Shown here: positions 12,115-55,033 of the stretch, piece by piece
Position numbering within the stretch: position 1 is the stretch's first letter
Layout: every line of letters begins with the position of its first letter
Source: an uncultured Tateyamaria sp.
Lineage (GTDB): Bacteria > Pseudomonadota > Alphaproteobacteria > Rhodobacterales > Rhodobacteraceae
Assembly: GCA_947501275.1 (NCBI GenBank)
Contig: CANMVD010000004.1
Coordinates: 1-64,000, forward strand
DNA: 64,000 nt
Reading direction: 5' to 3'
Position numbers and translations under genes: made by a program
Notes under the pieces: model-generated
Told to the model about the DNA's origin: nothing
The model's input: the letters and a program-made list of their open reading frames with translations, nothing else
Databases searched by the model: none

Positions 12115-12128
12115 TCTGAACACAAATT

Positions 12129-14325: not shown

Positions 14326-14327
14326 GA

Positions 14328-14699: not shown

Positions 14700-15709
14700 T
14701 GGACCTCCTCAACGCCTTCGTCACCCTTTCGAACTTCGTCCTGATCCCCGCCATCGCCTATGGCTCGCAACTGGCCCTTGGCGCACTCGGCGTGACCTTG
14801 ATCTACGGCATCCTCAGATTCTCCAACTTCGCCCATGGCGACACGATGGCCTTTGGCACCATGGCCACCATCCTCATCACCTGGGCCTTCCAGGCCGCGG
14901 GTATCTCCGCAGGCCCCCTGCCCACCGCACTGCTCGCCCTGCCCTTCGGCATCGCGGCCTGTGCGCTTTTGATCCTTGCCACGGATCGCGGCATTTACCG
15001 GTTTTATCGCACCCAAAAGGCCAAACCGATCATCTTTGTCATGGTCTCGCTCGGGGTGATGTTCATAATGAACGGCCTTGTGCGCTTTATCATCGGCCCC
15101 AACGACCAGCGGTTTTCAGACGGCGAGCGGTTCATCATTTCCGTGCGTGAGTTCAAGGCGCTGACGGGCCTGAAGGAAGGGCTGGCCATCAAAACAACCC
15201 AAGGGCTGACGGTGATCACAGCCGTCATCGTGGTGGCGCTGCTGTTTTACTTCCTGAACCGGACACGCACGGGGAAATCCATGCGCGCCTATTCCGATAA
15301 CGAAGATCTGGCGCTGCTTTCCGGCATCAACCCGGAACGGGTGGTGATGGTGACGTGGTTGATTGTTGCGGCATTGGCCACAGTTGCAGGTGTTCTTTAC
15401 GGGCTCGACAAGTCCTTCAAACCCTTTGTCTATTTCCAGCTGCTTCTGCCGATCTTTGCATCTGCCATCGTGGGTGGACTGGGCAATCCGCTGGGGGCAA
15501 TTGCCGGGGGTTTCACCATCGCCTTTTCCGAAGTGATGATCACATACGCCTGGAAGAAAGTTGCCAATTACACGTTGCCCGACGCACTTGCGCCGGATGG
15601 GTTGGCCCAGCTTTTGTCCACCGACTACAAGTTTGCCGTCAGCTTCGTCATTTTGCTGATTGTGCTGTTGTTCCGGCCCACGGGTCTGTTTGCGGGGAAA
15701 TCGGTATGA
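14699..15709 (+). CDS. livH: Branched-chain-type ABC transporter permease (LivH-like)
   Basis: 336 aa integral membrane protein with about eight hydrophobic helices. The start MDLLNAFVTLSNFVLIPAIA and the motif GALGVTLIYGILRFSNFAHGD are typical of LivH. The conserved cytoplasmic loop near ALLSGINPERVVMVTWLIVA and the segment GGLGNPLGAIAGGF also match. The ATG at 14699 is preceded by GGAGG. It overlaps livM by 4 nt (ATGA). Confidence 0.9.
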   Translation: MDLLNAFVTLSNFVLIPAIAYGSQLALGALGVTLIYGILRFSNFAHGDTMAFGTMATILITWAFQAAGISAGPLPTALLALPFGIAACALLILATDRGIYRFYRTQKAKPIIFVMVSLGVMFIMNGLVRFIIGPNDQRFSDGERFIISVREFKALTGLKEGLAIKTTQGLTVITAVIVVALLFYFLNRTRTGKSMRAYSDNEDLALLSGINPERVVMVTWLIVAALATVAGVLYGLDKSFKPFVYFQLLLPIFASAIVGGLGNPLGAIAGGFTIAFSEVMITYAWKKVANYTLPDALAPDGLAQLLSTDYKFAVSFVILLIVLLFRPTGLFAGKSV

Positions 15710-17010: not shown

Positions 17011-17011
17011 G

Positions 17012-17695
17012 GTGGCTGTGCGCCGCGTTTGGGCGGTTCTTGGCCTTCTGCTTTTGCTGATATCCGTGCAGGAATTTACGTGGCACGCGCTGTGGCGCGG
17101 GTGGTTTGGCCTCGGTGGTGATAACGCCGCGCAGGGCCGCTTGGTCGGCACGCGGATATCCGACGTCGCAGTCTTTGGCCACATGATCACAGGTGGTGTC
17201 ATTACGACGCTGGCAGTGTTGCAATGGGCCGGTCCGATCCGGGCACGCTGGCCAGTGATACACCGTTTGTCCGGGCGCATTCTGGCCCCTCTCGCCGTGC
17301 TGACGGGCGTTGCCGGGCTGATCTACATCCTGTTGCGCGGCACGATTGGCGGGCCAATCATGAACGTCGGGTTTGCGCTTTACGGCGTTCTGATGATTGT
17401 CGCGGCGCTCCAGACTTTTCGACTGGCACAACAGCGCGACGTGGTGCGGCACCGACGCTGGGGACTGCGTTTGATCGTGCTGGCTTTGGGGTCTTGGATT
17501 TACCGGGCCCACTACGGGATATGGTTTGCCATCACATGCGGCATCGGGCCGGAAACGTGCAGGTTGGGCAGCCAAAAGGACTTCTCTGGCCTGTTTGACC
17601 AGATACAGGTGTTTGCCTTTTACCTGCCCTATCTGCTGATCGTCGAAATCTGCCTGCGCTTGCAGAGCGCAAGAGGCGCGCTTAGCGCCCCTTGA
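17012..17695 (+). CDS. DUF2306-like multi-helix membrane protein
   Basis: 227 aa beginning at GTG 1 nt after livM. There are about six hydrophobic segments. The pattern of HMITGGVITTLAVLQWAGP, then HRLSGRILAPLAVLTGVAGL and RHRRWGLRLIVLALGSWIYR, with conserved His and Arg, follows the DUF2306 family (predicted membrane proteins, function unknown). It shares the strand and spacing of the liv operon, so it is probably cotranscribed, though a transport role is not implied. Its 3' end overlaps the convergent HerA-like gene by 14 nt. Confidence 0.7.
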   Translation: MAVRRVWAVLGLLLLLISVQEFTWHALWRGWFGLGGDNAAQGRLVGTRISDVAVFGHMITGGVITTLAVLQWAGPIRARWPVIHRLSGRILAPLAVLTGVAGLIYILLRGTIGGPIMNVGFALYGVLMIVAALQTFRLAQQRDVVRHRRWGLRLIVLALGSWIYRAHYGIWFAITCGIGPETCRLGSQKDFSGLFDQIQVFAFYLPYLLIVEICLRLQSARGALSAP

Positions 17696-24567: not shown

Positions 24568-24880
24568 ATCCCACCCATTTGTAATGTACTGTAGCAAGCT
24601 GCAGCAGTTTTCAGCCGCGCGGAGGGTGCATGTCCATTCACAACTGGCTGAATTGGCAATCTTGCAGGCCAATGATGCAAGCCTGCATCGGGTTTGCCAC
24701 CCCTCCACCAAATCAGCAACATTAACGCAAAAATTTGCCTAAAACTGATGAAACACTTCACAAGTCAGATTCATTGCTTGGTTAACGAATCGCAATATGC
24801 AATAAGCGAGTTGCATCTGGGGATGAGATGACAAAGACCCGTGTAACATCATGGGTGGCAGGCGTACGGGACGACAGACT
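24568..24880. promoter_or_regulatory. 313-bp divergent promoter region between L,D-transpeptidase and MepK-like genes
   Basis: No gene is seen. The part from about 24710 to 24830 is AT-rich and should contain the promoters of both envelope genes. Repeated TGCAATA/GCAATATGC-like words near 24790-24815 might be a regulator site, but nothing is clear enough to name. Confidence 0.4.
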
Positions 24881-25450
24881 ATGACGACAGATACCTCTAC
24901 GGGCATGACCCGCCGGGCTATTCTCGGTGCATTTGCAGCAACAACAGTTGCAGCAGCCCCAACCTTCTCCAAAGCCGCTGGTTTCCTTCGAGGCGCAGGC
25001 GATATCCGCCGCCTCAAAATGTATTCTGGCCGGACCGGCGAGCGCATCGATATGATCTATTGGATCGAAGGCAAGTACATCAAAGACTCCGTCAACGAAA
25101 TCAACCACTTCATGCGTGACTGGCGCACCAGTCAAGTCAAGTCGATCGATCTGCGCACGGTGGATATTATGGCTGCGTCGCACAACCTGCTGGATGCAAG
25201 CGAACCCTATCTTTTGCTGTCGGGATATCGCAGCCCGCAGACCAACGCGATGCTGCGCTCGCGCAGCCGTGGCGTCGCCAAGAATTCGCTGCACATGCAA
25301 GGCAAGGCTGCGGACCTGCGACTGTCGTCGCGGTCGGTCGGCCAGATTGCACGCGCCGCGCAAGCCTGCCGTGGCGGCGGAGTCGGCAGCTATTCCGGGT
25401 CCAACTTTGTCCACATGGATTGCGGCGACGTACGCAGCTGGGGCAGCTGA
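24881..25450 (+). CDS. Peptidoglycan endopeptidase, DUF882/M15 family (MepK-like)
   Basis: 189 aa. The N-terminus has a twin-arginine signal (TGMTRRAILGAFAATTVAAA), so it is exported folded by Tat. The zinc peptidase motifs are SGYRSPQTN, SLHMQGKAADLRL (HxxGxAxD) and FVHMDCGD (second His). MepK of E. coli cuts the 3-3 cross-links that L,D-transpeptidases form. It is divergent from such a transpeptidase here, a matching maker/cutter pair. The start could also be 24851 or 24905; 24881 gives a normal Tat n-region. Confidence 0.88.
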   Translation: MTTDTSTGMTRRAILGAFAATTVAAAPTFSKAAGFLRGAGDIRRLKMYSGRTGERIDMIYWIEGKYIKDSVNEINHFMRDWRTSQVKSIDLRTVDIMAASHNLLDASEPYLLLSGYRSPQTNAMLRSRSRGVAKNSLHMQGKAADLRLSSRSVGQIARAAQACRGGGVGSYSGSNFVHMDCGDVRSWGS

Positions 25451-25538
25451 GCCAACATTTTGCAAAAACTGAACGAAATCTGAGCAACTGGATACCGCGA
25501 TCTGTTTGGCTCTGCATGAAGCAGTTTGCTGCAATCGC

Positions 25539-27974
25539 TCATTCAGCCCACGCGCGTCGTAGATAGTCCCCAGCACTCAACAACTCTTCGTCTGCCTGCA
25601 CCTTGTTGCCCGGCGTGCGCCACAGGAATTGCTTTTCCTGATCCCAGAGCAAGCGGAATTGCGTGCGCATGTCGTCCAATTCGTCCTTTGGCATGATCCA
25701 GTTCATCCCCCCGTTGACGCAATTCACCAATACCAGCCGTTGCATGGGCACTGCGTCGGCAGAGTCCGCATAATGGCGCAGCACCTGTTCGTTGCGCAGC
25801 ACCATTGTGCCTCCACGTGCAGACAGCACCGCGTCGATTGGGCTGGTCAAAAATTCCAACCGGCCCCTTTCATCTGCAACAGCGTCCGGTTCGGGGCAAT
25901 GCTGTGTGCGTTCCGATGATGTCCCCAACTCAAACGCCCGGATCTCGATCAAAATGATGCCGGACGTGTTTTGCGCCAGCCACTTGGACAAACAGAACGG
26001 AACACGGTTGCCCCGAACGTCGCGTCGGTCTGCGTGGAATGAACACACGTCCCCATCACTTCCGAACAGCCCGGTAATGAGCGAGACGCCGTAATTGTCG
26101 TAATATCCTGCATCAACAACCCGGCGGCGTGGGTTGGATGGCAAGGACACCGCAGGTGAAATGTAGGGAAAGGTTGCGTTCATTCGCGCAGCTGTCGCCA
26201 TGCTGAAAGTGCCACGTGCACAGGGAAAAGCGCGGTGAAATTCAACGATCTCACCGTTGCGCGCATCCGGTATCTCGCTCAGGCGCAGATTTGAGATCAC
26301 CAACGGTTTGCTGCTCTCTATCAGCATTGGTGAAAACAGGATTGACGGACGCCACCCTTCGGCCTCTCCTGCGCGCAACGCGCCAAAGGGCACGTCGATT
26401 GTTTCCCAATGCTTCTCAAGTACTTTACCGCGGTCCACGTCGACCCTGCCCGGAATGATCAGGCTGGGCAGGTCCTTGCGAATGATGTGCTTGGAAACGG
26501 CAGACAGACTGTCACGGGGGAACGGGTTGGCAACGGCATGAAAATAGGCGCCTTGCTGCGCCGGTCGCGCCACTGTGTTGAGCTGCGCGTTACGAATGTC
26601 TGTTTCGAGCTGCAGTTCCGTCAGCTTTTGCTGAACGGGAAAACCGTCCTGCTGCGCCATCGCCGCAAAATAGGCTGCCCCGACCATGCCCCCCGACGCG
26701 CCCGTGATAAAGCGAACGCTGCGCGCCACACCTTCGAGCGCTGGATCTGTGCGGTCCGCATAGATCAACTCGTCTAACACAAGTGATGTCCAGAAGGCGG
26801 CGCGATACGCGCCACCAGATGTCGCCACAACAACCATTTTGGGTTTTTCGCGCTGTTGGGCCGCGCGTGCATGCTCCAACCAGCCATTCATGGCATGCGC
26901 CATATCGACCGGGCCGCCCGCAAATCCGTCGGCCGCACACCCTTCGGCAAAATCGTCGAAAAAACGCGCATCCCCAGCTTCAATGTCGTAGTGCAAATCC
27001 CTGAGAGCGTAGTGATTTTCGCCTCCGGGCCCGTTGATCCCGTCAAATGTCAACTTGAACCCATCGTCACCTTTGCCAAAGGCGCTCACGAACAGGAGAA
27101 CCACAAACAGAACCGTCCCGATTTTCACAACCGGGGTTGCCGCAGACAGAAAATGGAAGAACACAAAGACCAATAGGAAGAGGCAAATAAGTGCAACACC
27201 GGGCAGCAATGAATCGACCTTCAGCATGAGATACAGACCAACCCCCATGATCCCGAAAAACAGCGCGGCTGCCGTGTCGCGCAGGTTGGCGTTCATGAAA
27301 GCGGCCTGTCGCATCGCAAATGGTGCAACCATGCGAAGCACAGGCGACGTGGTGTCTTTGAGCAAAGCATCCACAGCGTGCGGATCCTGCAACAGCACCG
27401 TTGTGGGTCCAAAGATGTTGCGGATATAGGCCATAACCCATTGCAACAATTGCAAAAGAAGCGCAAATGCGGCCCATCCGACGACCACTCCCGCTGCGGC
27501 TCTGATGATTTCACCGGGCAAGAGCGCACTGCCATCTGCCGAGTACCAACCCCAGAGCAGCACGGCATGGATAACCACGCCAAACAGCACCAGCAGGATG
27601 GTTAGGACACGAGCCCCGATCATACGCTCGTTATGAGGTTTGAAATACCACTGGAACAGTGGTGCCACGAGCATCAGCCCAACTGCCATCGCCAACACGG
27701 CGGATGTCCAGGCCGTTGGACTGCTCAGGCTGTCCCATTCCCAAAAGCGATCATGCAATTCCGGCACATCGCGAAACAGATTGGACACACCAACCCCGTC
27801 GCTGCCCATACGCACGACATTCCACAGACAAACTGCAAGCACAGCACTGCCCCAATATCGCGGCAGGACAAATTCAGTCAAAAACCCTGAGATCTTGCGC
27901 CACAACGGACTGTGTTGGGCTGTCTTTTCAGGTGCAGTTGTGGGCGGAACAGACTCCGATTTTGCATCAGACAT
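25539..27974 (-). CDS. Membrane-anchored patatin-like phospholipase
   Basis: 811 aa. The first ~330 residues contain about seven hydrophobic segments (for example starting near residues 42, 83, 120, 160, 240 and 262). The C-terminal half has the patatin signature: an oxyanion-type VVVATSGGAYRAAFW, the nucleophile elbow GASGG (FITGASGGMVGAAYF) and the catalytic Asp in VVDAGYYDNYG. It should hydrolyse membrane lipid acyl chains, with the catalytic domain attached to a multi-helix membrane part. Similar large membrane patatins occur in proteobacteria with unknown substrates. It is alone on this strand, with the AT-rich divergent region to the molybdenum hydroxylase upstream. Convergent with the MepK-like gene. 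Confidence 0.82.
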   Translation of the reverse strand: MSDAKSESVPPTTAPEKTAQHSPLWRKISGFLTEFVLPRYWGSAVLAVCLWNVVRMGSDGVGVSNLFRDVPELHDRFWEWDSLSSPTAWTSAVLAMAVGLMLVAPLFQWYFKPHNERMIGARVLTILLVLFGVVIHAVLLWGWYSADGSALLPGEIIRAAAGVVVGWAAFALLLQLLQWVMAYIRNIFGPTTVLLQDPHAVDALLKDTTSPVLRMVAPFAMRQAAFMNANLRDTAAALFFGIMGVGLYLMLKVDSLLPGVALICLFLLVFVFFHFLSAATPVVKIGTVLFVVLLFVSAFGKGDDGFKLTFDGINGPGGENHYALRDLHYDIEAGDARFFDDFAEGCAADGFAGGPVDMAHAMNGWLEHARAAQQREKPKMVVVATSGGAYRAAFWTSLVLDELIYADRTDPALEGVARSVRFITGASGGMVGAAYFAAMAQQDGFPVQQKLTELQLETDIRNAQLNTVARPAQQGAYFHAVANPFPRDSLSAVSKHIIRKDLPSLIIPGRVDVDRGKVLEKHWETIDVPFGALRAGEAEGWRPSILFSPMLIESSKPLVISNLRLSEIPDARNGEIVEFHRAFPCARGTFSMATAARMNATFPYISPAVSLPSNPRRRVVDAGYYDNYGVSLITGLFGSDGDVCSFHADRRDVRGNRVPFCLSKWLAQNTSGIILIEIRAFELGTSSERTQHCPEPDAVADERGRLEFLTSPIDAVLSARGGTMVLRNEQVLRHYADSADAVPMQRLVLVNCVNGGMNWIMPKDELDDMRTQFRLLWDQEKQFLWRTPGNKVQADEELLSAGDYLRRAWAE

Positions 27975-28176: not shown

Positions 28177-31100
28177 ATGGCCGACGATACTGTGACCGGT
28201 CTGGGGGCCGGAAACACGAAGCCTGTTCAATTCATACTGAATGGCGCACACGTCACATTGGATGACGTAGCGCCTCATGCGTTGCTGATAGACTACCTGC
28301 ATCAGCCGGATGTCGGCCTTGCCGGACCCAAACTGGTATGCGGAGAAGCCGGGTGCGGCGCGTGCACAGTGATGGAAACATCGTGGGACCCGATTTCAGA
28401 AACCTTCGTCAAGCGGGCCATCAATTCTTGCGTGCGTCCTGTCGCATCGCTCGACGGCGCGGTGATAACCACCACCGAAGGGTTGGGATCGACCCGCACG
28501 GCGATGGATCCTGTCCAATATGCCCTCGCCGCGCATAACGGATCACAGTGCGGATTTTGTTCTGCCGGTTTTGTCATGAACATGCATACTTTGCTGGAAA
28601 ACAATCCCGGTGGTGTCAGCGAAGCAGCGATCGAGCAAAACTTTGACGGGCACATTTGTCGCTGTACCGGGTATCGCCCGATCCTCGATGGATTCAAAAC
28701 ATTTGCTGATGACTATACGCCGCAACTCACTCCGCAACCCGTTGAGATTGCAGATGATTATGCCCCGCTGGTCAAAGATCTGGAAAGCCCGGCACCGCCG
28801 CCTGCGCAATTTCAGGGGTATATGAAAACCCCAAATCTGGCGTATTACACCAACGGGTCCGAAACATTCGTTCGTGCAACGGATCACGCGACACTGTCTG
28901 AAATCATGACCAGCTTTGACCCGGTGTCAGGTGGCCGCAGGTTGGTGTCAGGCAATACCAGCATCGGCATATACAAGCCCCTCTCGGTCTATAACGAAAA
29001 GCCGGTGGCGCCGCGCACGCTGATCGACATTTCGCGCGTGCCAGAGTTGATGGGTGTGTCGGAAAACGCCCTGAACGGAGACCAAGAACCGCCGGTTCTG
29101 GAAATCAACGCCGGCACAACGCTGAGCCAGTTGATCGCGTTCCTCGAGGACCAAATCGCCACGCAGCCCGCGGCGCATGTGCGTGCATATGCGGGCATGT
29201 TGCGTCACCTCAAGGTCGTGGCCAATCATCAGGTGCGCGAGGTGGCCACAGTGGGCGGCAACATCGCCATGGCCGTCAATTACGGGTTCATGTCGGATGT
29301 GATCGTGCTGCTCGCGGCGTTGCGCACCAGCGTTACCTACACAACCTTCCGTCCCACCAACGACACGGCTTCAGATTACGTGCTGAACCTGCCATCGCAT
29401 GACACGGGCAATGTGCTTTACAGCAAATTCCATGCCACGACCGGTCTTGGGCCAGACTGGTACTTTTCCAGTCACAAGGTGCGCGCGCGGCCTGACAACG
29501 CCCATGCCCTGGTCAACAATGCGCTTTCCGTCAAGATCGAAGATGGGCGGATCAGTAGTATTGTTATCATTTACAATGGCTTGAGGCCCGATCTTGATAA
29601 CGGAACGCTACGCTCAGTTGGGGGCAATCCGGCGTTTCGTGCCGTTCAGATGATCGAACTTGAAGGCGCGCTGCATGGGCGTGGCTGGGACAATGAAACC
29701 CTTCAAATCGGGCTCGCCGCGCTGGAAAAGGAGCTTGACCAGATCATCCCCACGGACCTCGCACCAGTAGAGACCGTGCCATGGTCCTACCGCCGTTCGT
29801 TGGCGCGCACCCTGTTCTTCAAGGCATTTGTCGAAATCGCGGAACAATTGGGAACTGACCTGAGCAGCGCAGACAAAAGTGCGGCAGGCCCCATTGCACG
29901 CGGCGTGTCCGGTGGACGTCAAAGCTACAACGATTACCCGGACGAATTGCCCCTGTCCGCGCCAATGCTCAAGCTGTCAGCCTTCATGCAGACGACAGGC
30001 GAAGCGGAATACGTCCAGACGCAGAAAACGCCGCCGGACACTTGGGAAGCGGCGTATGTGTATTCGCGCGCGGCACTGGGCACCTTCCGGTTCTGCAATC
30101 TCAAGGGAGAGACCTGCGGACCACAGGACGTTGTGCGCGAATTGCAGGCCGAGGGCTTCGACAAGCTGCTGGGGATTGTCACCTATGATGATGTGCCCAA
30201 CAAGACCGGCAACTGGGCTGGCATGGGTCTCGACGAGCCGATCTTTGTGCCCGCTGAAGGCGCAGACATCCCCGAGGGCATTCTGAAGCTGGCACAGGAA
30301 CAATCGACGTTCCAGCCAACGGCCTTTACTTCTTCTGGCGCGCCGTTGGCTCTGATCTTTGCAAAAACACGCGAGGATGCCCGCCAATTGGCGGCCTTTA
30401 TCCGGTACAACCACGTTGTTGAAACGCCCCTGCCCGACCCGCTTGTGACATTGGATGCGGCCATTGCCGCTGGATCCGAATTCACAAATCTGCCCCCTAC
30501 CAATCCGACCATGGAGCGGATCGAAAGCATCACGCGCCCGGGCAGCAATACCAAATGGCTTGACGACCCATCCATCGGCATGACGGGCTGTACATCCGTG
30601 GCTGGCACACACCGGACAGGCGCGCAGAACCATTTTTATCTGGAGACTCAGACGACGCTGGCTGTGCCGGGCGAAAATGGTGCGATGACGGTGCATGCCT
30701 CGACGCAGAACCTCGCAGACAACCAGTACGGGGCGGCGCACGCGCTTGGCGTGTCCGCCAACAAGGTCGCCGTCAAAATGATCCGGGCGGGTGGTGGATT
30801 TGGCGGCAAGCAAATGCGCACCGCCTTCACATCAACCGCCGCCTCTGTGGCTGCCGCTGCATTGAACCGGCCTGTGCGCCTGATGCTGGATCGAAACACG
30901 AATCTGATCATGCAAGGCAACCGTCACCCGTTTGAGGCCGATTACCACGCGGCCGTGTCCCCGAACGGACGGATTCAGGGGTTGCGTGTCGACTTCCGCT
31001 CTGACGGGGGCTGTACCTACGACATTTCGTTCAACATCATGGATTTCGTGCAGCTTCTGGCGGAAAATGTCTATGACCTACGCACATGGAGAACGACCGG

Positions 31101-32754
31101 CAAGGTATTCAGAACAAACAAGATTTCCTCAACTGCCTATCGCGGTTTCGGCATCATCCAATGTATGAACATCATGGAAGGGATCATTGCGCATATTGCC
31201 CATGATATGGGCATGTCGGTGGAAGATGTGCGCGCCCAGAACCTATATGTGCGCGGGCGTCCCGTTTCGGGTCCTTTCCGGATCACGAACCAGACGCTGG
31301 ACGCGTTGACGACGATGAACGTTCTTTCGGATACCGATCTCAGCAGCCTTGCGACACTGGCGGGTCAGGATTTTCAGACAGAAACAGAATTTCGTGAGCG
31401 ACTTCAGGCGACACTGGATCTGAGCCCGGCGCAACTGCTGATCATTCTGGACATGGCCACGCTGGCCCACGGCTTTACGCCGTACATGCAGCCGCTGGAC
31501 AAGTTCAACCTCGACACGACCTACCTCGCCATGGTGCGTGACCCGGACTATGCCGCGCGACAACAAGCGGTCGCAGAGTTCAACGCCACGCACCGATGGA
31601 AGAAACGTGGTCTCTATTCGATGCCGCTGAAATACGGCAATGCGTTCACCGGCCCGCGTGGGGCGCTGAACCAGGGCGGGGCCTATGTGGTGGCTTATTC
31701 TGACGATGGGTCAGTGTTGGTGCGCCATGGCGGCGTTGAATTGGGCCAGGGCATTCAAACGCAGATGGCGCAGATTGCAGCCCAGACCCTTGGCATCCCG
31801 CTCGACAAGATCCAGATGGGATCGACCACCACCGAAGTGATTGGGGATGCAGCACCAACTGCGGCATCAACCGCCTCTGATCTGAATGGCGGGGCTGTCG
31901 AAATGGCGTGTCGTGATCTGCGCTCTCGGCTGGAGGATTTCTGCCGCACGCTCGAGCAATACAGTTTTCGCGATGTCCAGACCAACAGGACACCCTCAGA
32001 GGCCGGGTACAAATCGATGGTCGAGGCCGTCGTCCTGAACTGGCGTACCCGGTGGTCCGAAGTGTGGGATATGGTGGTGTCGCTGGCGTTTCAGAACCGG
32101 ATCAACCTGGCTGCAAGTGCACGGTATGCTGTACCGGATTACTCGGCAGTGGATGGGCGCCACCCGATAGGCAATCCGTTCCTTTATCACCTCTATTCCG
32201 CGGCCATCTCCGAGGTCGAGTTGGATGTGTTGACGGGTGAGTGGAATTTTGTGCGTGCGGACATCCGGGGCGATATCGGCAAATCGCTCAACCCATTGCT
32301 GGATGTGGGCCAGATCGAAGGTGCCTTTATTCAGGGGCTTGGCTATCTGACCACCGAGGAGATGTTGTGGCAAACCCCTGATCAGGCCCCGATTGAAGGG
32401 TTCGAGAACGGGGCGCTGCTGACGTATGGGACGTGGGCTTACAAACCGCCCACTATCAACTCGATCCCCGAAGACTTCCGCGTTCACATCGTTGACAACA
32501 CCGCCACCCAAGCCACCGGCATGAACGAGACCGGCCCCGCCCCTGCAGACAGTGGCGTTAAAGCCTCCAAGGGGGCCAGCGAATTCGCCCTCGTTCTCGC
32601 CAATTCAGCCTTTTATGCGTTGCACGCAGCCGTCACCGCAGCGCGCAAGGATGCTGGTTTGACGGAATGGGCACAGATTGACGCGCCCGCAACCGTGCCA
32701 CGCCTACAAATGGCATGTGCCCCTGATCCAAGCCGCTTTTCCCTGAAACACTAA
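28177..32754 (+). CDS. Single-chain molybdenum hydroxylase, xanthine dehydrogenase/aldehyde oxidase family
   Basis: 1525 aa; ATG at 28177 with GGGGGG upstream (a GTG one codon earlier is possible). One chain carries all cofactor domains, as in eukaryotic xanthine dehydrogenase, while most bacteria use two or three subunits. In order: [2Fe-2S] (CGEAGCGACT), second [2Fe-2S] (CGFCSAGF, then CRCTGYRP), FAD domain (GGNIAMAVNYG), and the molybdopterin domains (STQN, GGGFGGK, STAYRGFG, ELGQGIQTQM). The catalytic Glu is kept (E1469, in SKGASEF). By comparison with bovine XDH from memory, Glu802 is Gln (Q879) and Arg880 is Tyr (Y948), while both pocket Phe are kept. An insertion of about 70 residues precedes RWKKRGL. 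This argues against plain xanthine oxidation. It heads a plus-strand cluster to 39.7 kb. Confidence 0.9.
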   Translation: MADDTVTGLGAGNTKPVQFILNGAHVTLDDVAPHALLIDYLHQPDVGLAGPKLVCGEAGCGACTVMETSWDPISETFVKRAINSCVRPVASLDGAVITTTEGLGSTRTAMDPVQYALAAHNGSQCGFCSAGFVMNMHTLLENNPGGVSEAAIEQNFDGHICRCTGYRPILDGFKTFADDYTPQLTPQPVEIADDYAPLVKDLESPAPPPAQFQGYMKTPNLAYYTNGSETFVRATDHATLSEIMTSFDPVSGGRRLVSGNTSIGIYKPLSVYNEKPVAPRTLIDISRVPELMGVSENALNGDQEPPVLEINAGTTLSQLIAFLEDQIATQPAAHVRAYAGMLRHLKVVANHQVREVATVGGNIAMAVNYGFMSDVIVLLAALRTSVTYTTFRPTNDTASDYVLNLPSHDTGNVLYSKFHATTGLGPDWYFSSHKVRARPDNAHALVNNALSVKIEDGRISSIVIIYNGLRPDLDNGTLRSVGGNPAFRAVQMIELEGALHGRGWDNETLQIGLAALEKELDQIIPTDLAPVETVPWSYRRSLARTLFFKAFVEIAEQLGTDLSSADKSAAGPIARGVSGGRQSYNDYPDELPLSAPMLKLSAFMQTTGEAEYVQTQKTPPDTWEAAYVYSRAALGTFRFCNLKGETCGPQDVVRELQAEGFDKLLGIVTYDDVPNKTGNWAGMGLDEPIFVPAEGADIPEGILKLAQEQSTFQPTAFTSSGAPLALIFAKTREDARQLAAFIRYNHVVETPLPDPLVTLDAAIAAGSEFTNLPPTNPTMERIESITRPGSNTKWLDDPSIGMTGCTSVAGTHRTGAQNHFYLETQTTLAVPGENGAMTVHASTQNLADNQYGAAHALGVSANKVAVKMIRAGGGFGGKQMRTAFTSTAASVAAAALNRPVRLMLDRNTNLIMQGNRHPFEADYHAAVSPNGRIQGLRVDFRSDGGCTYDISFNIMDFVQLLAENVYDLRTWRTTGKVFRTNKISSTAYRGFGIIQCMNIMEGIIAHIAHDMGMSVEDVRAQNLYVRGRPVSGPFRITNQTLDALTTMNVLSDTDLSSLATLAGQDFQTETEFRERLQATLDLSPAQLLIILDMATLAHGFTPYMQPLDKFNLDTTYLAMVRDPDYAARQQAVAEFNATHRWKKRGLYSMPLKYGNAFTGPRGALNQGGAYVVAYSDDGSVLVRHGGVELGQGIQTQMAQIAAQTLGIPLDKIQMGSTTTEVIGDAAPTAASTASDLNGGAVEMACRDLRSRLEDFCRTLEQYSFRDVQTNRTPSEAGYKSMVEAVVLNWRTRWSEVWDMVVSLAFQNRINLAASARYAVPDYSAVDGRHPIGNPFLYHLYSAAISEVELDVLTGEWNFVRADIRGDIGKSLNPLLDVGQIEGAFIQGLGYLTTEEMLWQTPDQAPIEGFENGALLTYGTWAYKPPTINSIPEDFRVHIVDNTATQATGMNETGPAPADSGVKASKGASEFALVLANSAFYALHAAVTAARKDAGLTEWAQIDAPATVPRLQMACAPDPSRFSLKH

Positions 32755-32779
32755 ATCAAAACACTTTAAGGAGACCCCG

Positions 32780-33781
32780 ATGACCAAGATACCATTGCTC
32801 GTGACACATGATGGCTCCGTCGACGAATTTGCGTCAATTGCGCTGTTGTGTGGATCTGATTTCCTCGCAAACTACGACCTGCAAGGGATTGTCGTCATCA
32901 ATGGAGACACGCTTGGCGTACCGGCATATTGGTGCACGAAACGGATCCTAAACATGTGCGGTCAGGGCCATGTGCCTGTTGGGCTGAGTGCTGCGCGTGC
33001 CGTCAACGGATTTCCGTGGGCATATCGCCAATTCCCGCTAATCCTGAACACATTGCCCGCGCTGCCCGAGATGCCTGGGCTGGAAGACGCAGATATTGTC
33101 GATGGTGATCACCTTTTGGCGGACATCATGACAAATGCGGAGGAAGGCGCTTTGGCGGTGCTGAACCTTGGAGGGCTGACGCCATTTGCGCAGGTAGCGG
33201 GCGATCTCAACATGTGGAGCAAGGTCAAGTGCATGTACTGGATGGGTGGGGTCATCGGGGACACCGTGCCCGGCAACATTGATCCCGGCATTGTTCCCGG
33301 CGCACCTGAACATTCCGAGTGGAATGTCTTTTTCGATCCCGGCGCGGTCCAGACGGTTTACAATGAAATGTTGCCTGCGCCGATCTATCAATTCCCGCTT
33401 AACGTCACGAATGACTACCCCAACTCTGCCGAGTGGGTGCGCAGCAGCCTGAACCCGTCGGCCAATGCCGGACACCGTGTGGTGAACTTTCTGGCCAACG
33501 CCTATGCAGCCGTCGTGCCACAGGGTGGTGCGTCGCTGTGGGATGTTGTCACAACGATCGGGCTGATGAACACGGGCTCTTCCGCAGGTGTGACGTTCTT
33601 TGGCTACGAGGCCCATGACGTTCATGTTGGTACGCAATACGGGCCAAATGAGGGGCGCATCATCACTTCGACCAGTGGCGGAGGCCGACGGATCAACGTC
33701 GCGACCAAGAACGCGCCTGTCGAAACTGTACACGGCTACGCGCTCGGTCAGTGGGAAAGCATCCCGAACTTTGAAGGTTGA
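32780..33781 (+). CDS. Inosine-uridine nucleoside hydrolase-like protein
   Basis: 333 aa. The fold is suggested by the N-terminal LLVTHDGSVDEFASIALL, ALAVLNLGGLTPFAQ and VKCMYWMGGV, the calcium-site-like FPLNVTND and the late WDVVTTIGL. The family hydrolyses N-glycosidic bonds of ribonucleosides using Ca2+ bound by a DxDPGxDD motif; here that motif is THDGSVDE, so two of the usual acidic residues are changed. No signal peptide, so cytoplasmic. It starts 25 nt after the hydroxylase gene (AAGGAG ribosome site) and is probably cotranscribed. It could release a base for the hydroxylase, but the altered motif leaves the activity open. Confidence 0.72.
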   Translation: MTKIPLLVTHDGSVDEFASIALLCGSDFLANYDLQGIVVINGDTLGVPAYWCTKRILNMCGQGHVPVGLSAARAVNGFPWAYRQFPLILNTLPALPEMPGLEDADIVDGDHLLADIMTNAEEGALAVLNLGGLTPFAQVAGDLNMWSKVKCMYWMGGVIGDTVPGNIDPGIVPGAPEHSEWNVFFDPGAVQTVYNEMLPAPIYQFPLNVTNDYPNSAEWVRSSLNPSANAGHRVVNFLANAYAAVVPQGGASLWDVVTTIGLMNTGSSAGVTFFGYEAHDVHVGTQYGPNEGRIITSTSGGGRRINVATKNAPVETVHGYALGQWESIPNFEG

Positions 33782-33808
33782 GGCAGGGACCAAATGAAAG
33801 GACAGACA

Positions 33809-34546
33809 ATGCGCCATTGGATACGTTGCATTGTGATCGCGACCGGTCTGATCTGGGCGGCCACGCTGCACGCAACCGAAATCACCATGACGTTCGGGGA
33901 TTCCACGCCTCCATATGCGTTTTCGGACACCGGTGTCGGCCTCGAAGTCGATATCGTGCGTGAGGCCCTTGCTCACAGTGGGTACACGCTTGTGCCGAAC
34001 TTCGTGCCTGCTGCGCGCGTAGAGCGGCAGTTCAAGCAAGGGCTGGTGGACGCGGCTTCAAAAGATCCAGTGCGTATTCTGGAGGGGCCGGATGCACATT
34101 ACGGCGCGGTTTCTGTGGAATACTTTGACGTGCTGATTACCCTGAGCGCAGATGATCTGACACTGGACACGCCTGCCAATCTGGATGGCCTCAAGGTGAT
34201 GGCGTTTCAGAATGCCTGGAAGTTTTTTCCCGAATGGCTTGAGCCTGTGCGGGATGACGCGCGCTACAGCCAGACACCGAACCAGCTTGAACAAGTGCGT
34301 GCGTTAATCAGTGGCTTGGTGGATGTTGTGGTGGCTGATCGAAACATTTTCAACTACCACGCCCGGCAATGGGCAACAGAAAGCGGATCGACGTTGCCGC
34401 CGCTCAAATACACGGCCTTTCAGGCTCCGCTGGAGGTGCGCCCGGTCTTTAGGGATGCCGCTATTCGCGACGCATTCAATGCCGGTCTCGCCCACCTGAA
34501 ATCCACAGGCCGCTATGATGAACTTGTGAACCAGTACTTGAATTGA
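33809..34546 (+). CDS. Family-3 extracellular solute-binding protein (copy 1)
   Basis: 245 aa. Signal peptide MRHWIRCIVIATGLIWAATL with cleavage near LHA. The mature part (EITMTFGDSTPPYAFSDTG, VDIVREALAHSGY, VVADRNIFNYHA, FNAGLAHLKSTGRYDELVNQ) is a polar-amino-acid type periplasmic-binding protein (PF00497-like). I prefer the ATG at 33809 (AAAGGA upstream) over 33794, but both are possible. There is no lipobox. No ABC permease or ATPase is nearby. It shares an ancestor with the next gene and sits just before a membrane histidine kinase, so it may present ligand to a sensor rather than a transporter. Confidence 0.85.
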   Translation: MRHWIRCIVIATGLIWAATLHATEITMTFGDSTPPYAFSDTGVGLEVDIVREALAHSGYTLVPNFVPAARVERQFKQGLVDAASKDPVRILEGPDAHYGAVSVEYFDVLITLSADDLTLDTPANLDGLKVMAFQNAWKFFPEWLEPVRDDARYSQTPNQLEQVRALISGLVDVVVADRNIFNYHARQWATESGSTLPPLKYTAFQAPLEVRPVFRDAAIRDAFNAGLAHLKSTGRYDELVNQYLN

Positions 34547-34550
34547 AAAT

Positions 34551-34630
34551 GTCACGCAGTTGTGACGGGCAAGTTGCCCCAAACCGATGACCATCAGGCG
34601 CAAAGGCTCTTATACCACAAGAGCGCCTGA
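34551..34630 (+). repeat. Nested stem-loops in the leader of the second solute-binding protein gene
   Basis: Three inverted repeats fill the gap between the two paralogous binding-protein genes. GTCAC (34551-34555) pairs with GTGAC (34562-34566), followed by GGGC/GCCC (34567-34579). A larger one has TCAGGCG (34594-34600) paired with CGCCTGA (34624-34630), enclosing CTCTT (34607-34611) and AAGAG (34619-34623). The last ends 24 nt before the ATG of copy 2. They may act as mRNA processing or stability structures; no U-run follows. Confidence 0.6.
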
Positions 34631-34653
34631 ACCGAACGATGAGGGACTATGAG

Positions 34654-35406
34654 ATGAAAGTTTGGACATTAGGCCACCGTGTCGTTTTGATGTTGATCCT
34701 TATGACAGGGATCATGGCATCACACGCGCAGGCCGAGCCCGTCACAATGACCTTCGGGGCGTCCACGCCGCCCTACGCGTTCCCCGACACCGGCCGCGGT
34801 ATCGAGGTCGACATCATTCGAGAAGCCTTGGCGCAATCCGGTTACGAACTGGAACCCGTCTTTGTCCCGGCACGGCGTATCGCATTTGAGTTCATTCAGG
34901 GCAAAGTCGATGCAGCCTCTAAAGATCAGGGCGAGGATCTGACACAGCATGGCGGCATCTACGGCGATGTTTCGGTCAAGTTTCAGGATGTCATCTTTAC
35001 CCTGACCGACAGCGACATTTCAGTGGCAAAGCCAGAGGATCTGGCCCCCTTGCGCGTTGTCGCCTTCCAGAATGCCTCCAAGCACTACAGCGAATGGCTT
35101 TCGCCGCTTGTCGGATCGGCCAACTATACCGAAACCGCAGATCAGAGCCTGCAGGTCAAGATGCTACATCGTGGCCGTGCGGACGCGATCGTAGCAGACC
35201 GCAACATTGTGCAATACCTGACAAAACTGGTGGCCGAGGAAGGCAAGATCGGCATCAAGCCCGTCACCATCAATGACTTTGCTGATCCCTGGGGATATCG
35301 CCCCATCTTCAAAAGCGAACAACTGCGAGACGAGTTCAATGCCGGTCTGAAAAAACTGATAGACTCGGGACGCTATCAGGAGATTGTAGAAAGCTACGTG
35401 AACTGA
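34654..35406 (+). CDS. Family-3 extracellular solute-binding protein (copy 2)
   Basis: 250 aa. Start at 34654 with GAGGG 8 nt upstream (34639 is an alternative in-frame ATG). Signal peptide through ASHAQA. The mature protein follows copy 1 closely (PVTMTFGASTPPYAFPDTG, VDIIREALAQSGYELEPVF, VAFQNASKHYSEWL, IVADRNIVQYL), so the pair arose by tandem duplication. Family-3 fold, no lipobox. The hybrid kinase gene starts 83 bp downstream. The divergence between copies in the ligand-binding half suggests different ligands or roles. Confidence 0.85.
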   Translation: MKVWTLGHRVVLMLILMTGIMASHAQAEPVTMTFGASTPPYAFPDTGRGIEVDIIREALAQSGYELEPVFVPARRIAFEFIQGKVDAASKDQGEDLTQHGGIYGDVSVKFQDVIFTLTDSDISVAKPEDLAPLRVVAFQNASKHYSEWLSPLVGSANYTETADQSLQVKMLHRGRADAIVADRNIVQYLTKLVAEEGKIGIKPVTINDFADPWGYRPIFKSEQLRDEFNAGLKKLIDSGRYQEIVESYVN

Positions 35407-35488
35407 AGCACGATGACCCGGGGGGACAGGACGTGCCAGCCACGGGATTGCCAGAACGGAACCACCTTTTGACACGGGATCTGACGTT

Positions 35489-38400
35489 ATGACCGCACGG
35501 CGTGCACCAGCAAGTCTGCGCACACTCCGTGCCAAATTTTTGATTGTTATCGTCCCGCTTGTTCTGCTGGCAGTTGTCATCGTTTTTGCCTTCTTCGAGA
35601 TCAACGCCGATCGTCGCGCCACCCAGCAATTGCAGGATCGACTTGACCAACTGCTGACCATGCAAAGTCAGGTCTTGTCGCGCCCGCTGTGGAGCCTGTC
35701 GGAGGAGCAAATCGAACTCATCGTTTCCGCAATCGAAGTCGATGACGATGTTCTGGCGGTTGCGATCTACGATGAGACAGGCAGCCTGATGTCCGCCAAA
35801 GGTGTGATTGAGGGGATGGAGCAGAACCGCTTCTTTGGCCAGCGCGACATCGTGCAGTCCAGCGGTGATGTCCAGCAAATCATCGGAACACTCGCCATTA
35901 CGCTGGCACCCAACTCGGTACGCGAAGAGCGTAACAGCCGTCTGGTGCTCGCCTTTGGCCTCGCCGGCGTATTGCTCGCCGCCATTATCATCAGCGCCCT
36001 TATTGCCAATCGCAGAACCATCGGGATGCCGCTGGACATGCTACTCACGTCGATCAATCAGTTGCGACAGGGGGACGGGCGCCACCGTGTCAATTGGCAC
36101 AGTGATGACGAAATGGGCGCGGTAATTGACGCCTACAACGAAATGCTCGCGCGGCAGGAAAGCGACGAACGGAGCCTGCGCGCTGCCTATGACGAGCTGG
36201 AAGAGCGGGTTGAACGGCGCACCGCAGAACTTCTGGTTGCAAGCCAACAACTGACCGACGCCATCGAAAGCATGTCCGAGGGATTCGCCCTTTACGATGC
36301 CGAAGATCGACTTGTTCTTTGCAACACCACCTATCGCGACAAGATCTTTACCGGCGATCCGGATCGATTTGAGATCGGGATGCGCTTTTCCGATGTTGTG
36401 AGATTGATCGCGGACTCCGGTCAGGTGCTGTCGGCACTTGATGATCCGGACGCTTGGTATCAACAGCGCAAAGATCGGCATCGCACACCGGACCAACCCA
36501 TTCTGGAACAGCGCAAGGACGGCACGTGGATTCAGATCAAGGAATATCCAACAGCCGATGGTGGGGTTGTCGGAATTTACACCGACCTCACCGAGCTACA
36601 GCGCCTGTCCGTCGAACTGGAGGATGCCAAGAACGTGGCCGAAAGCGCCAACGAAGCCAAGAGCACATTCCTTGCCACCATGAGCCACGAAATTCGCACG
36701 CCCATGAACGGGATCATCGGGATGTCCAACCTGTTGTTGGACACACACCTTGACGATGAGCAACGCGACTTTGGAGAAACGATCAACAGCTCCGCCGAAG
36801 ATCTTTTGACCATCATCAACGACATTCTGGATTTCAGTCGCGTGGATTCAGGCAAGTTGGATCTGGAACACATCGCCTTTGATCTGCGCACCACGATCGA
36901 AGAAGCCGTGGATCTTGTTTCGGTTCTGGCCGCCAAGAAGGGGCTTGATCTGGCCTATTTGATGGAGCCTGACGTGCCGACGCTTGTGCACGGTGACCCA
37001 ACGCGTCTGCGCCAGGTTCTGTTGAACTTGCTCAACAATGCGATCAAGTTCACGGAGAAAGGCGATGTTGTCCTTGCCGTGCACTATTCAGGAAACGGAG
37101 CCAAGGCCGGAACGCACGCCCTACAGTTCTGTGTGCGCGATTCAGGGATCGGCATTCCTGCGGACCGCATGGATACGTTGTTTCAGTCATTCAGTCAGGT
37201 CGATGCCTCAACGACCCGTCGCTATGGCGGCACTGGGCTCGGGCTGGCGATCTCGGAAAAGCTGGTGTCGCTCATGGGCGGGCGGATTTGGGTCGAAAGC
37301 GAAGTTGGCAAGGGCACGATTTTTCATTTCGTGATCGACTTCGAAGCGGACACCGCAGCCCCTGCCCCCGATTTAAGTGCAGCAATCGCCGGGCTCGCCG
37401 ACAGGCGCGCACTTATCGTGGATGACAATGCCACCAACCGCCGCATATTGGATGTGCAGACCCGAGATTGGAACATGCAACCGACCGTCGTAGAAGATGG
37501 CGATGCCGCAATTTCCGTTTTGAGCGATGACGCCGCCTTTGATGTCGCCATTCTGGATCTGTCTATGCCCGGTGAAGATGGTTTGAGCTTGGCCAAGCGG
37601 ATCAAAGCTTTGCCTGATTGCGCCAACCTGCCTTTGATCTTGCTGAGTTCAATCGGGCGTACAGTGTTGGAACGCCAGCCCGGATTTAACACGATCATCT
37701 TTGAACGCGTGTTGCAAAAACCGATCAAGCCTGCCCCGCTCTTGCAGGCATTGGCGTCTATCCTGTCCCCGCATGAACAGACGATTGTGGCCGCAAATGT
37801 TGCAACCAGAACAGAATTCGACACCGAAATGGCACGTCGCCTGCCGCTGAGGATCCTGCTGGCTGATGATAATACCACCAACCAGAAACTGGCAAAAATG
37901 CTATTGGCACGGCTTGGATATCGCGCCGACGTCGCCTCAAACGGCGTTGAGGTTCTCGAAGCACTGGAGGTGCAGACATACGATGTCGTTTTGATGGATA
38001 TTGAAATGCCAGAGATGGACGGCATGGAGGCCACCCGCCGCATTCACGCCGATTGGGGCGAAAAGGCCCCTGCGATTGTTGCCATGACGGCCAATGCGAT
38101 GCGCGGAGATCGTGACAAGTACCTGTCGATGGGCATGTCGCAATACATCTCAAAGCCGATCCGTGTGGCGGCGCTTGTGCGCGCTCTTGAGGCCGTCGCC
38201 GCAGGGCGAACGGTGCATGAAACGGCAGCCGAGGATACAGAGATCAATTCGGATGTTCCGCCAGCAGATGCCGTTTTGGATGAAGCGTCCCTGTCTAACC
38301 TGATGGATGTCATTGGCGGTGACAGCGCCGCGCTGAATGAGTTGATCGACAGTTTCGCCAGCGAGGGCGAAACCTTGTTGCGTCGAATGCGCGACGCCAC

Positions 38401-38611
38401 AAAGGCAGATGACGTTGACGCCCTGCGTCGTGCCGCCCATTCGATGAAGTCCAGTAGCAATGACTTTGGGGCCAAGTCGCTGTCCGCGCTTGCCCGGGAC
38501 CTGGAACAGCGCGCCCGTCAACACGATCTGACCGATTGTGATGGTCTGTTGGATGAAATCGCACTAGCCTTCAGCCAAACCAAAGAAGCGCTGCAAAAGC
38601 TGCAGGAATGA
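35489..38611 (+). CDS. Hybrid sensor histidine kinase (PAS, HisKA, HATPase, two receivers, HPt)
   Basis: 1040 aa membrane kinase. A first membrane helix at about residues 16-37, a periplasmic loop of ~110 residues, and a second helix at ~153-173 come first. Then HAMP (~174-226), a coiled coil ([14 protein letters not shown]), PAS_7-type domain (~255-375), HisKA with phospho-acceptor H400 ([11 protein letters not shown]) and HATPase_c ([24 protein letters not shown]). Two receivers follow with acceptors D690 (LDLSMP) and D837 (MDIEMP), and an HPt domain with H984 (AAHSMKSSS). The phosphorelay ends in the adjacent receiver-cyclase, only 12 nt downstream. Two binding-protein genes precede it, and its periplasmic loop is a plausible docking surface for them. 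Confidence 0.93.
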
Positions 38612-38623
38612 ATGGCGACCTGA

Positions 38624-39682
38624 ATGTCTGACTTTGAGATGCCGCAAAAGGCCAGTACCATTCTGGTGGTCGACGACAACATGACGAGCCGGCTCAAAAT
38701 GTCCATGGCAGTCAAGCAGTTGGGCCACGAGACGGAAGGCGCCGAAGATGGTGTGCAGGCTCTCGAACGGTTGCGCGACGGCAGCTATGACCTTGTTCTG
38801 CTAGATATCGAAATGCCCAATCTTGATGGCTATGGCGTGCTGGAGACGATGAAGGCGGACCCAGCCTTGCGCGACATTCCGGTTATTGTCATTTCAGCCG
38901 TCGAGGAAATGGAACAGGTCGTCAAAGGCATTCAGTTGGGCGCACAGGATTTTCTGCCCAAGGATTTTGATCGCATCCTGTTTCGGGCCCGTGTCGGCGC
39001 TTGCCTCGCCCAGAAGCACCTGCGCGATCAAGAGGCGAGCTATCTGGCACAGATCGAGACAGAGCGGCGGCGCGCAGATGATCTGTTGCACGCCACCCTA
39101 CCCGCCCGAGCAGTGCGCGAACTCAAAGACACCAACGAGGTCAAGCCCCGGCGGTTTGACAATGTCATTGTGCTGATGGCGGATGTCGTCGGTTTTACCG
39201 ACTATTGCGACAAACATCCCGCCGAGCTGGCCGTGCGCCATCTCCAGCATCTCGTGACGCGGTTTGAGGACATCACATTGTTTCACGGTCTGGAAAAGAT
39301 CAAGACCATCGGAGACGCGTATCTGGCCACCGCCGATCTGTTGCAGCCCAACGCCGAGGCAGCCCTTGCCACGGCGCGCTGCGCACTTGAGATGACAAAC
39401 GCCGTGGCCGAAGTGACCGACAACTGGCAATTGCGTATTGGCATTCACACCGGCTCGGTTGTCGCCGGCGTCATTGGCCGTCACCAGCACCTGTTTGATA
39501 TCTGGGGCGACACCGTGAACACTGTGGCGCGTATAACGGCCATGGCTAAGCCTGACACGATCTTTGCCAGCGCGGATGCATGGGCGCGGATGCAAGACCA
39601 TTGTGTTGGCACCGCCCAAGGCGCATTGCCTGCCAAGGGCAAGGGCGAGTTGGAGGTTTTCCAATTGACCGGCCTGACCTGA
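38624..39682 (+). CDS. Response regulator with class III adenylate cyclase domain
   Basis: 352 aa. An N-terminal receiver (LVVDDNMTSRLKMSM, acceptor D61 in LLDIEMP, TRL-type K in PKDFD) is followed by a short coiled coil and a class III nucleotide cyclase catalytic domain. Metal-binding D187 is in LMADVVGFTDY, and a second acidic site is near HGLEKIKTIGDAYL. The Lys in EKIKTIGD and the Asp in HLFDIWGDTVN are the adenine-specifying residues of adenylate (not guanylate) cyclases. It is probably the output of the upstream hybrid kinase, turning phosphorylation into a cAMP signal. No membrane segment is seen. Confidence 0.92.
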   Translation: MSDFEMPQKASTILVVDDNMTSRLKMSMAVKQLGHETEGAEDGVQALERLRDGSYDLVLLDIEMPNLDGYGVLETMKADPALRDIPVIVISAVEEMEQVVKGIQLGAQDFLPKDFDRILFRARVGACLAQKHLRDQEASYLAQIETERRRADDLLHATLPARAVRELKDTNEVKPRRFDNVIVLMADVVGFTDYCDKHPAELAVRHLQHLVTRFEDITLFHGLEKIKTIGDAYLATADLLQPNAEAALATARCALEMTNAVAEVTDNWQLRIGIHTGSVVAGVIGRHQHLFDIWGDTVNTVARITAMAKPDTIFASADAWARMQDHCVGTAQGALPAKGKGELEVFQLTGLT

Positions 39683-53385: not shown

Positions 53386-53462
<77 letters not shown>

Positions 53463-54877: not shown

Positions 54878-55033
54878 TAAATTCTCTCCGTTGAAAACTG
54901 CGGGGTGTTGGACCCCAAAACGTAAAATGCTGACGTTTGCCGCTGCGGTACCGGAATAGGTGCCGAAGTTTGGAAAACTCTGAAAAACAGTATAACGGAC
55001 CAGAACGGAGTCAAACGTGAAAAACACGTTAAG

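Follow-up and report, generated by a model that had tools for sequence, protein, structure and literature searches.

All the proteins encoded at this locus are members of known families. Mammalian XDH and AOX and the fungal enzymes HxA and HxnS share with the hydroxylase described here a single-chain domain order, the catalytic Glu1261 and an aromatic sandwich, whereas the present enzyme has Gln and Phe for E802 and R880, is ~200 aa longer and is bacterial. IAG-type (group II) nucleoside hydrolases are likewise PF01156 proteins with a W-D motif and another aromatic residue where the base would stack, but the nucleoside-hydrolase-family enzyme (NH) of this locus differs from them in having E16 for the calcium-binding Asp and T9 for the first Asp of the motif. 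TorT-TorS and LuxP-LuxQ are systems in which hybrid kinases are triggered by periplasmic binding proteins. The cassette similarly combines a periplasmic binding protein with a hybrid kinase and a REC/Hpt phosphorelay, and it departs from both systems in its duplicated pair of family-3 solute-binding proteins (SBPs), in the small periplasmic domain of the kinase (~105 residues), in an adenylate cyclase output where those systems have a transcription factor, and in the enzymes placed in the same cassette. CyaC of cyanobacteria is reportedly a kinase-driven response-regulator cyclase of class III, fed by phosphotransfer; its receiver-controlled class III cyclase has a counterpart here, but in the cassette the REC-cyclase is a protein of its own, with the membrane kinase and the binding proteins encoded separately beside it. 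A partial literature search found no published description of the combination.

The locus lies within a window of 64,000 nucleotides (the whole stretch of DNA analysed) from a marine bacterium. A first-pass annotation had described six plus-strand genes in a row, and all six open reading frames proved intact at those coordinates, with Pfam agreeing on their families (Table 1). The gap lengths it gave were reproduced as well (25, 12 or 27, 92 or 107, 82 and 12 bp in gene order, the alternatives depending on start codon choice). Scanning the cassette gaps for terminator patterns gave none on the plus strand and listed a minus-strand hairpin between SBP1 and SBP2, though its totals were within ~1.5 standard deviations of those for shuffled sequence, so the scan proves little. 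The upstream DNA of the three copies described below aligned too poorly, on visual inspection, for a common promoter to be recognised. As had been claimed, Pfam detected no transporter genes among the six, and the nearest permease and ATPase genes seen were those of a branched-chain-type ABC system ~11 kb away (10915-17010) with its own binding protein. No permease or ATPase genes linked to the SBPs occurred among the flanking genes scanned at the three copies; a pqi-type lipid-transport operon is on the flank of the window copy.

Table 1 The six genes of the cassette, with the basis for each assignment.
Feature	Position	Strand	Length	Basis
Single-chain molybdenum hydroxylase, XDH/AOX family	28174 (GTG) or 28177 (ATG)..32754	+	1525-1526 aa	Pfam, alignments to solved XDH, XdhB controls, orthologues
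Nucleoside-hydrolase-family enzyme (NH)	32780..33781	+	333 aa	PF01156, alignments to 2c40 and IAG-NH
Family-3 solute-binding protein 1 (SBP1)	33794 or 33809..34546	+	250 aa	PF00497, orthologues
Family-3 solute-binding protein 2 (SBP2)	34639 or 34654..35406	+	255 aa	PF00497, AlphaFold2 model
Membrane hybrid histidine kinase	35489..38611	+	1040 aa	Pfam, hydropathy, motif positions
Response regulator whose output domain is a class III adenylate cyclase	38624..39682	+	352 aa	Pfam, alignments to solved adenylate cyclases

Among 20 genomes of the window's genus, three contained NH, three the full-length hydroxylase (3297-3328 bits including the window's own, every other match scoring at most 220.5) and three the cyclase (754-763 bits; next best 473). 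These were the same three genomes, and neither NH nor the full-length hydroxylase occurred without the cyclase. All three carriers have the six genes in one order on one strand, the other copies (L006 and L007) showing 63-79% identity. Scattering in related genomes had been set beforehand as the test of whether the six genes belong together; they are not scattered in any carrier, and recurrence of the same six, in the same order and strand, at two other unrelated sites bears out the suggestion that they co-occur beyond chance. Whichever two copies are compared, the third codon position differs at 46-61% of sites and positions 1 and 2 at 12-29%, as expected under purifying selection on all six genes.

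A search for the gene order in other Rhodobacterales had also been proposed; in our searches the cassette was seen in this genus only and is much rarer than that wider scope would suggest. NH profile searches of 394 genomes of the family (393 genera) and 289 of the class each gave a single hit, the window's own genome, and a genome-contig scan with NH, a method that finds close relatives only, returned two loci, both in the genus. We thus rejected a wide Rhodobacterales operon. Phylum-wide hydroxylase searches, which scored two candidates per genome and may therefore miss rare relatives, recovered only the window's own genome at E 1e-150 (299 genomes) and that genome plus G715, which has an ordinary xdhAB, at 1e-70 (2 of 398). 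The known copies number only three, and a single genus holds them all.

In a carB tree the carriers lie scattered, and the cassette occupies a different site in each. Ten genes that flank the cassette in the window were searched for in ~5 kb upstream and ~4 kb downstream of the L006 and L007 copies, and none matched; the scanned flanks of these copies hold sugar-nucleotide and thiolase/PaaA genes (L006) or ilvD and DMSP lyase/carB (L007). An empty site was found in G205, a sister genome of the carrier G211, where the stretches that align to the two G211 cassette flanks are no more than 74 bp apart. No exact repeat of at least 8 bases was common to both ends of the G211 insertion, and no transposase was found among the flanking genes scanned (a subset of ORFs). 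The G+C content of the cassette (57.1, 61.3 and 61.4% for the window, L006 and L007) looks adapted to its site (flanks 57.6, 63.3 and 62.4%); DNA sampled elsewhere in these genomes has 59.7, 64.4 and 58.4%. Since the cassettes at L006 and L007 have similar G+C and their genomes do not, exchange is possible. The cassette has diverged about as far as the 28 reciprocal best hits shared by G000 and G206 (median 76%, mean 70% identity); the pairs G000-G211 and G206-G211, with only 6 and 5 such hits, were excluded from this comparison. Either transfer, or loss and relocation, may have produced the scattered presence.

The occurrence of six intact genes together at three unrelated sites in three related species suggests an undescribed sense-and-degrade system. 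We consider the case evenly balanced that they make up a single operon-like unit, transferable or at least able to relocate, which would couple sensing of the outside to oxidation of a specific small compound. This reading has to be weighed against another that is possible but less probable, namely that the enzyme pair and the sensor are independent modules made neighbours by chance co-transfer, with the sensor acting elsewhere through cAMP. In G207, a sister of a carrier other than G211, a divergent SBP is encoded with a kinase (46% identity) and a cyclase (58%) in a different orientation, and neither NH nor the cassette hydroxylase is present in that genome. SBP, kinase and cyclase have therefore been associated twice, in support of a modular sensing half. 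A Methylobacterium plasmid carries a distant hydroxylase relative (39% identity), and an incomplete annotation table names neither a nucleoside hydrolase nor any kinase, cyclase or binding protein within 12 kb of it. As this relative and the sensing set each also occur alone, the sensed ligand and the enzyme substrate need not match. The independent-module reading is also favored by the diffusible, global nature of a cAMP output, and the lack of any cAMP target within the cassette counts against a single unit. Independent modules are opposed by the presence of all six genes at three unrelated sites over a divergence like that of the reciprocal best hits, and by the consistent company that the enzymes keep with the cyclase among the 20 genus genomes.

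The hydroxylase contains Fer2_2, FAD_binding_5, CO_deh_flav_C, MoCoBD_1 and MoCoBD_2 domains (Pfam), placing the [2Fe-2S], FAD and Moco modules in one chain in the order found in XDH (Pfam and PDB alignments). Its catalytic machinery is conserved in all three copies: numbered on the window's enzyme, Glu1261 corresponds to E1469, and the aromatic pair Phe914/Phe1009 to F991 and F1157. The counterpart of Q767, identified by count, is Q844 of an STQN motif, without variation among the copies and Gln in four ordinary XdhB controls. Bovine E802 and R880, which bind purine (residue roles from PMC3624778, PMC4334109, PMC5746545), are replaced by Q879 and F957 in all three copies (numbering from ATG), whereas the XdhB controls (G715, G000, G206 and G211, three of the four being from the carriers themselves) all have Glu and Arg at these positions. 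XDH-like aldehyde oxidases also keep neither residue, as stated in PMC5746545. Profile scores place the protein far below the NCBIfam cut-offs for xanthine dehydrogenase (480.2 of 849.5 bits for TIGR02965, 228.7 of 467 for TIGR02963) and for mammalian-type aldehyde oxidase (528.4 of 1912.3 bits for TIGR02969).

The family names alone would fit ordinary purine salvage, in which NH frees hypoxanthine or guanine, a xanthine dehydrogenase produces urate and the sensor detects purines. NH lends this some support by carrying W254-D255 and Y82, a motif of the tryptophan kind resembling that of group II, purine-type hydrolases. The hydroxylase, however, argues against purine salvage, given its altered purine-binding pair and its low scores. 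Moreover, each of the three carriers has a separate xdhA-xdhB-xdhC operon that keeps the Glu/Arg pair, and its XdhB and XdhA pass both cut-offs, TIGR02965 and TIGR02963, that the cassette protein fails. We consider purine salvage very unlikely. The replaced pair and the separate operon led us to reject an identity as ordinary xanthine dehydrogenase and make purine (xanthine) breakdown by this enzyme unlikely; purines were among the compounds that the first-pass annotation had proposed to test. The substrate is probably neither hypoxanthine nor xanthine. That cells with an intact xanthine dehydrogenase operon also have this atypical molybdenum enzyme points to a new substrate.

NH is predicted to be an N-ribosidase, with the Glu at a calcium-binding Asp position counting against this assignment. 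It matches PF01156 at 1e-25, but the DXDXXXDD calcium/ribose motif reads T-H-D-G-S-V-D-E in all three copies, with D11 and D15 kept alongside the T9 and E16 substitutions.

The two SBPs had been called duplicates, and they are indeed 47% identical to each other, each with a PF00497 domain. Both appear to be exported, judging by eye from their N-termini. SBP1 changes faster than SBP2 (63-70% versus 74-78% identity among orthologues). The SBPs resemble amino-acid-type binding proteins, to which an AlphaFold2 model of SBP2 (pLDDT 79.5) was matched in the PDB; we counted this resemblance against the single-unit reading. In the three cassettes, and again with the divergent SBP of G207, binding protein genes adjoin a kinase with a presumed periplasmic domain. 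Such adjacency does not always signify partnership, which further favors independent modules: in Pseudomonas, PMC11113362 describes neighbouring sbp and kinase genes whose products did not interact.

The kinase has the Pfam architecture PAS_7-HisKA-HATPase-REC-REC-Hpt, with a HAMP match just below cut-off. Hydrophobic segments at ~10-42 and ~149-175 flank the presumed periplasmic domain, and the phosphorelay domains and sites are complete (HisKA H400, REC1 D690, REC2 D837 and Hpt H984). Its best NCBIfam match was TorS, under cut-off at 465.7 of 676.5 bits. The sensor model was poor (pLDDT 57), and a Foldseek match to a WalK-type receptor domain was therefore set aside as evidence. The cyclase protein joins a receiver (PF00072, D61) to a class III cyclase domain (PF00211) containing D187 and D231, which we take to be catalytic, and K227 and D292, presumably adenine-type residues.

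If the six genes do act as one unit, the two exported SBPs, lacking a transporter of their own, would bind one or two small compounds and deliver these to the small periplasmic domain of the kinase. Phosphate could then pass from H400 through a receiver to Hpt H984 and on to D61 of the cyclase receiver, and the phosphorylated REC-cyclase would make cAMP, which would act via a CRP-type factor encoded outside the cassette. In the cytoplasm, the NH-like enzyme would cleave a riboside and the hydroxylase would oxidise the aromatic N-heterocycle so released, or an aldehyde made from it. Within this scheme we infer the contact between SBPs and kinase, the control of the enzymes by cAMP, and the identity of the sensed compound with the substrate. 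A more specific version, in which the cassette serves one N-riboside or its aromatic base (for example a cytokinin-type substituted adenine or another algal nucleoside), combining the cAMP output with a hydroxylase pocket re-shaped away from xanthine, is doubtful. The absence of a transporter, sensing placed beside metabolism, patchy presence and the faster change of SBP1 are indirect pointers to another reading, in which the enzymes act on an excreted heterocycle or nucleoside that signals between cells or with a host, by producing, maturing or destroying it, and the relay measures its level. We regard such a signal as improbable: neither the hydroxylase nor NH has a strongly hydrophobic segment, by a crude measure that also flagged neither SBP.

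Should the single-unit reading be true, the cassette would be a compact, self-contained catabolic unit whose dedicated regulator is a second-messenger (cAMP) synthase and not a transcription factor. The empty sister site and the three locations ease the design of knock-out and comparison tests.

Relatives in a plasmid collection were distant. NH matched 25 records, the best at ~30% identity among the matches listed, and SBP2 matched 14, the best at ~31% among those listed; of the four SBP2 contexts read, three had usable annotation, in which neither the enzymes nor such a cyclase appeared. On an Azospirillum plasmid, an SBP gene adjoins a response regulator gene.

The linkage of the six plus-strand cassette genes (molybdenum hydroxylase, nucleoside hydrolase, binding proteins SBP1 and SBP2, hybrid kinase, and REC-cyclase) is real and well supported. 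ORF calls and a domain search bore out the coordinates and domains given for six intact reading frames by the first-pass annotation, and the intergenic gaps (25, 12 or 27, 92 or 107, 82, and 12 bp, the alternatives depending on start codon choice) agree with it. A promoter/terminator pattern scan detected no plus-strand terminator in the five gaps and a minus-strand hairpin between SBP1 and SBP2; its totals were near those of shuffled sequence (promoters 8 vs. 5.0 ± 2.2, terminators 6 vs. 10.1 ± 3.8) and it proves little. A check for the same gene order in relatives was positive: scanning genome contigs with the nucleoside hydrolase identified two loci, L006 and L007, both from uncultured Tateyamaria (genomes G206 and G211), which carry all six genes in identical order and strand. 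Cassette proteins of these copies showed 63–79% identity. Among the three copies, differences amounted to 46–61% at codon position 3 vs. 12–29% at positions 1 and 2, a pattern as would be expected for proteins under selection.

Nucleoside hydrolase protein searches matched 3 of 20 genus genomes, including the window's own. The latter was the sole match for this protein and for SBP2 among 198 genomes of the family, for the hydrolase profile among 394 family genomes (393 genera), and for the hydrolase among 289 genomes of the class. A full-length hydroxylase profile scored 3297–3328 bits in the same three genus genomes and at most 220.5 bits elsewhere in the 20 (matches counted at E up to 1e-50), while a cyclase profile scored 754–763 bits in these three vs. 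473 bits for the best match elsewhere in the 20 (genome G207).

The three copies occupy different surroundings. Ten flanking genes from the window had no matches in L006 or L007, where the sequence compared reached ~5 kb beyond the upstream end of the cassette and ~4 kb beyond its downstream end. Among the genes scanned, L006 is flanked by sugar-nucleotide genes and a thiolase/PaaA pair, and L007 by ilvD and by a DMSP lyase gene followed by carB. In G205, sister of G211, the ilvD-side and DMSP-lyase-side flanks of the G211 cassette align no more than 74 bp apart; the matching site in G211 holds 11.6 kb, including the cassette. By eye, DNA similarity among the three copies fades close to the outer gene ends. 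A second cyclase gene (cyclase and weak TPR matches) adjoins ilvD in the G211 copy, and lies outside the cassette because its DNA also matches in cassette-free G205.

In a carB tree of 20 genomes the carriers are scattered, with at least three state changes forced by well-supported branches, though this is one gene tree, from which gain and loss are not distinguishable. The carriers' nearest relatives (G212, G207, and G205) all lack the nucleoside hydrolase and the full-length hydroxylase. The distribution may reflect ancient exchange among members of the genus, or else the cassette may have been lost repeatedly and relocated. Comparisons of G+C and divergence do not establish a recent foreign arrival. 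Cassette divergence approximates the level seen across 28 reciprocal best hits shared by the window's genome and G206 (median 76%, mean 70%). Cassette G+C is near that of the immediate flanks, but it is alike in L006 and L007 (61.3 and 61.4%) whereas other stretches of those genomes differ (64.4 and 58.4%).

Four alignment stretches with mammalian XDH together span most of the hydroxylase. The catalytic Glu1261 corresponds to E1469, and Phe914/Phe1009 to F991/F1157. The positions of human Glu803/Arg881 (bovine 802/880) are Gln879/Phe957 in all three cassette copies and Glu/Arg in four of four ordinary XdhB proteins, from the three carriers and from G715, a genome outside the carriers (for residue roles, see PMC4334109 and PMC5746545). 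In each carrier the ordinary genes are arranged as an xdhA-xdhB-xdhC operon, with nine of nine products above NCBIfam cut-offs (XdhB 1201–1233 bits, cut-off 849.5), and the cassette enzyme falls below the xanthine dehydrogenase cut-offs. Given the Gln/Phe pocket, the separate intact xdhABC, and the missed cut-offs, the purine assignment first made for the molybdenum enzyme should be dropped.

One of 11 plasmid records contained a closer relative, a single ORF from Methylobacterium indicum (38.7% identity over 1361 aligned residues) with Thr/Cys at the pocket positions. Two hypothetical proteins without Pfam matches flank it, and the incomplete annotation lists no nucleoside hydrolase, binding protein, kinase, or cyclase within 12 kb. 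The other ten records showed 26–28% identity (six annotated xdhA/xdhB, four unannotated under the match).

Structure alignments and motif positions revealed that the nucleoside hydrolase has the group II tryptophan (as defined in PMC10526354) and that its second stacking position is aromatic. In its calcium motif, T9 replaces the first Asp and E16 the last; structure 2c40 likewise deviates at the first position. Both enzymes would be compatible with a riboside whose aromatic base is neither xanthine nor hypoxanthine.

On the sensing side, Pfam and hydropathy place two hydrophobic segments around a ~105-residue domain in the kinase, with a HAMP-like match and PAS_7. Its phosphorelay sites are H400, D690 and D837 in the two receivers, and H984 in Hpt. 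In the cyclase, Pfam and motif positions identify D61 of the receiver and the class III residues. The predicted SBP2 structure (pLDDT 79.5) and a profile search both match amino-acid-type binding proteins.

A related set in G207, which has neither the nucleoside hydrolase nor the cassette hydroxylase by protein and profile searches, differs in orientation. Its kinase lacks Hpt and is 46% identical to the cassette kinase overall (kinase core 62%, periplasmic domain 32%), its cyclase is 58% identical, and its binding protein shares 23–25% identity with SBP1 and SBP2. An alpha/beta-hydrolase/LuxR-type gene adjoins this set. A G201 cluster differs in its input, a Tll0287-like protein instead of a binding protein. 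Across the three sets, an exported or presumed exported small protein, a hybrid kinase, and a REC-cyclase therefore recur as neighbours. However, a published study found no interaction between binding proteins and kinases encoded side by side (PMC11113362), which counts against coupling. A sense-and-degrade mechanism, as originally proposed, is in our judgement the preferred explanation of the cassette, with a likelihood of roughly one half. A literature search of partial coverage found no description of a system with this composition, and this absence is therefore weak evidence of novelty.

Features of the window and of the compared loci
Feature	Location	Strand or orientation	Remarks
Hydroxylase relative, Methylobacterium indicum	L070 (NZ_AP024146.1) 12010-16269		plasmid typed conjugative; single chain, same broad group
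Sensing set without enzymes	L064 (G207:C11) 10739-17514		REC-EamA fusion, REC-cyclase, hybrid kinase, divergent family-3 binding protein
Kinase-to-cAMP cluster	L065 (G201:C201) 9154-14540		Tll0287-like protein with CxxCH motif, hybrid kinase, HisKA-REC-cyclase in a row
Second cyclase gene	L007 1659-3428		
Branched-chain-type ABC transporter	window, ~11 kb upstream of cassette		own binding protein
Two ORFs, 264 and 811 aa	window 24782-27974	minus	adjoin cassette; no Pfam match; 811-aa ORF upstream, divergent
pqi-type operon	window, downstream of cassette	convergent	
tRNA-Arg gene, then protein with RTX calcium-binding repeats	window 53386-55027	minus
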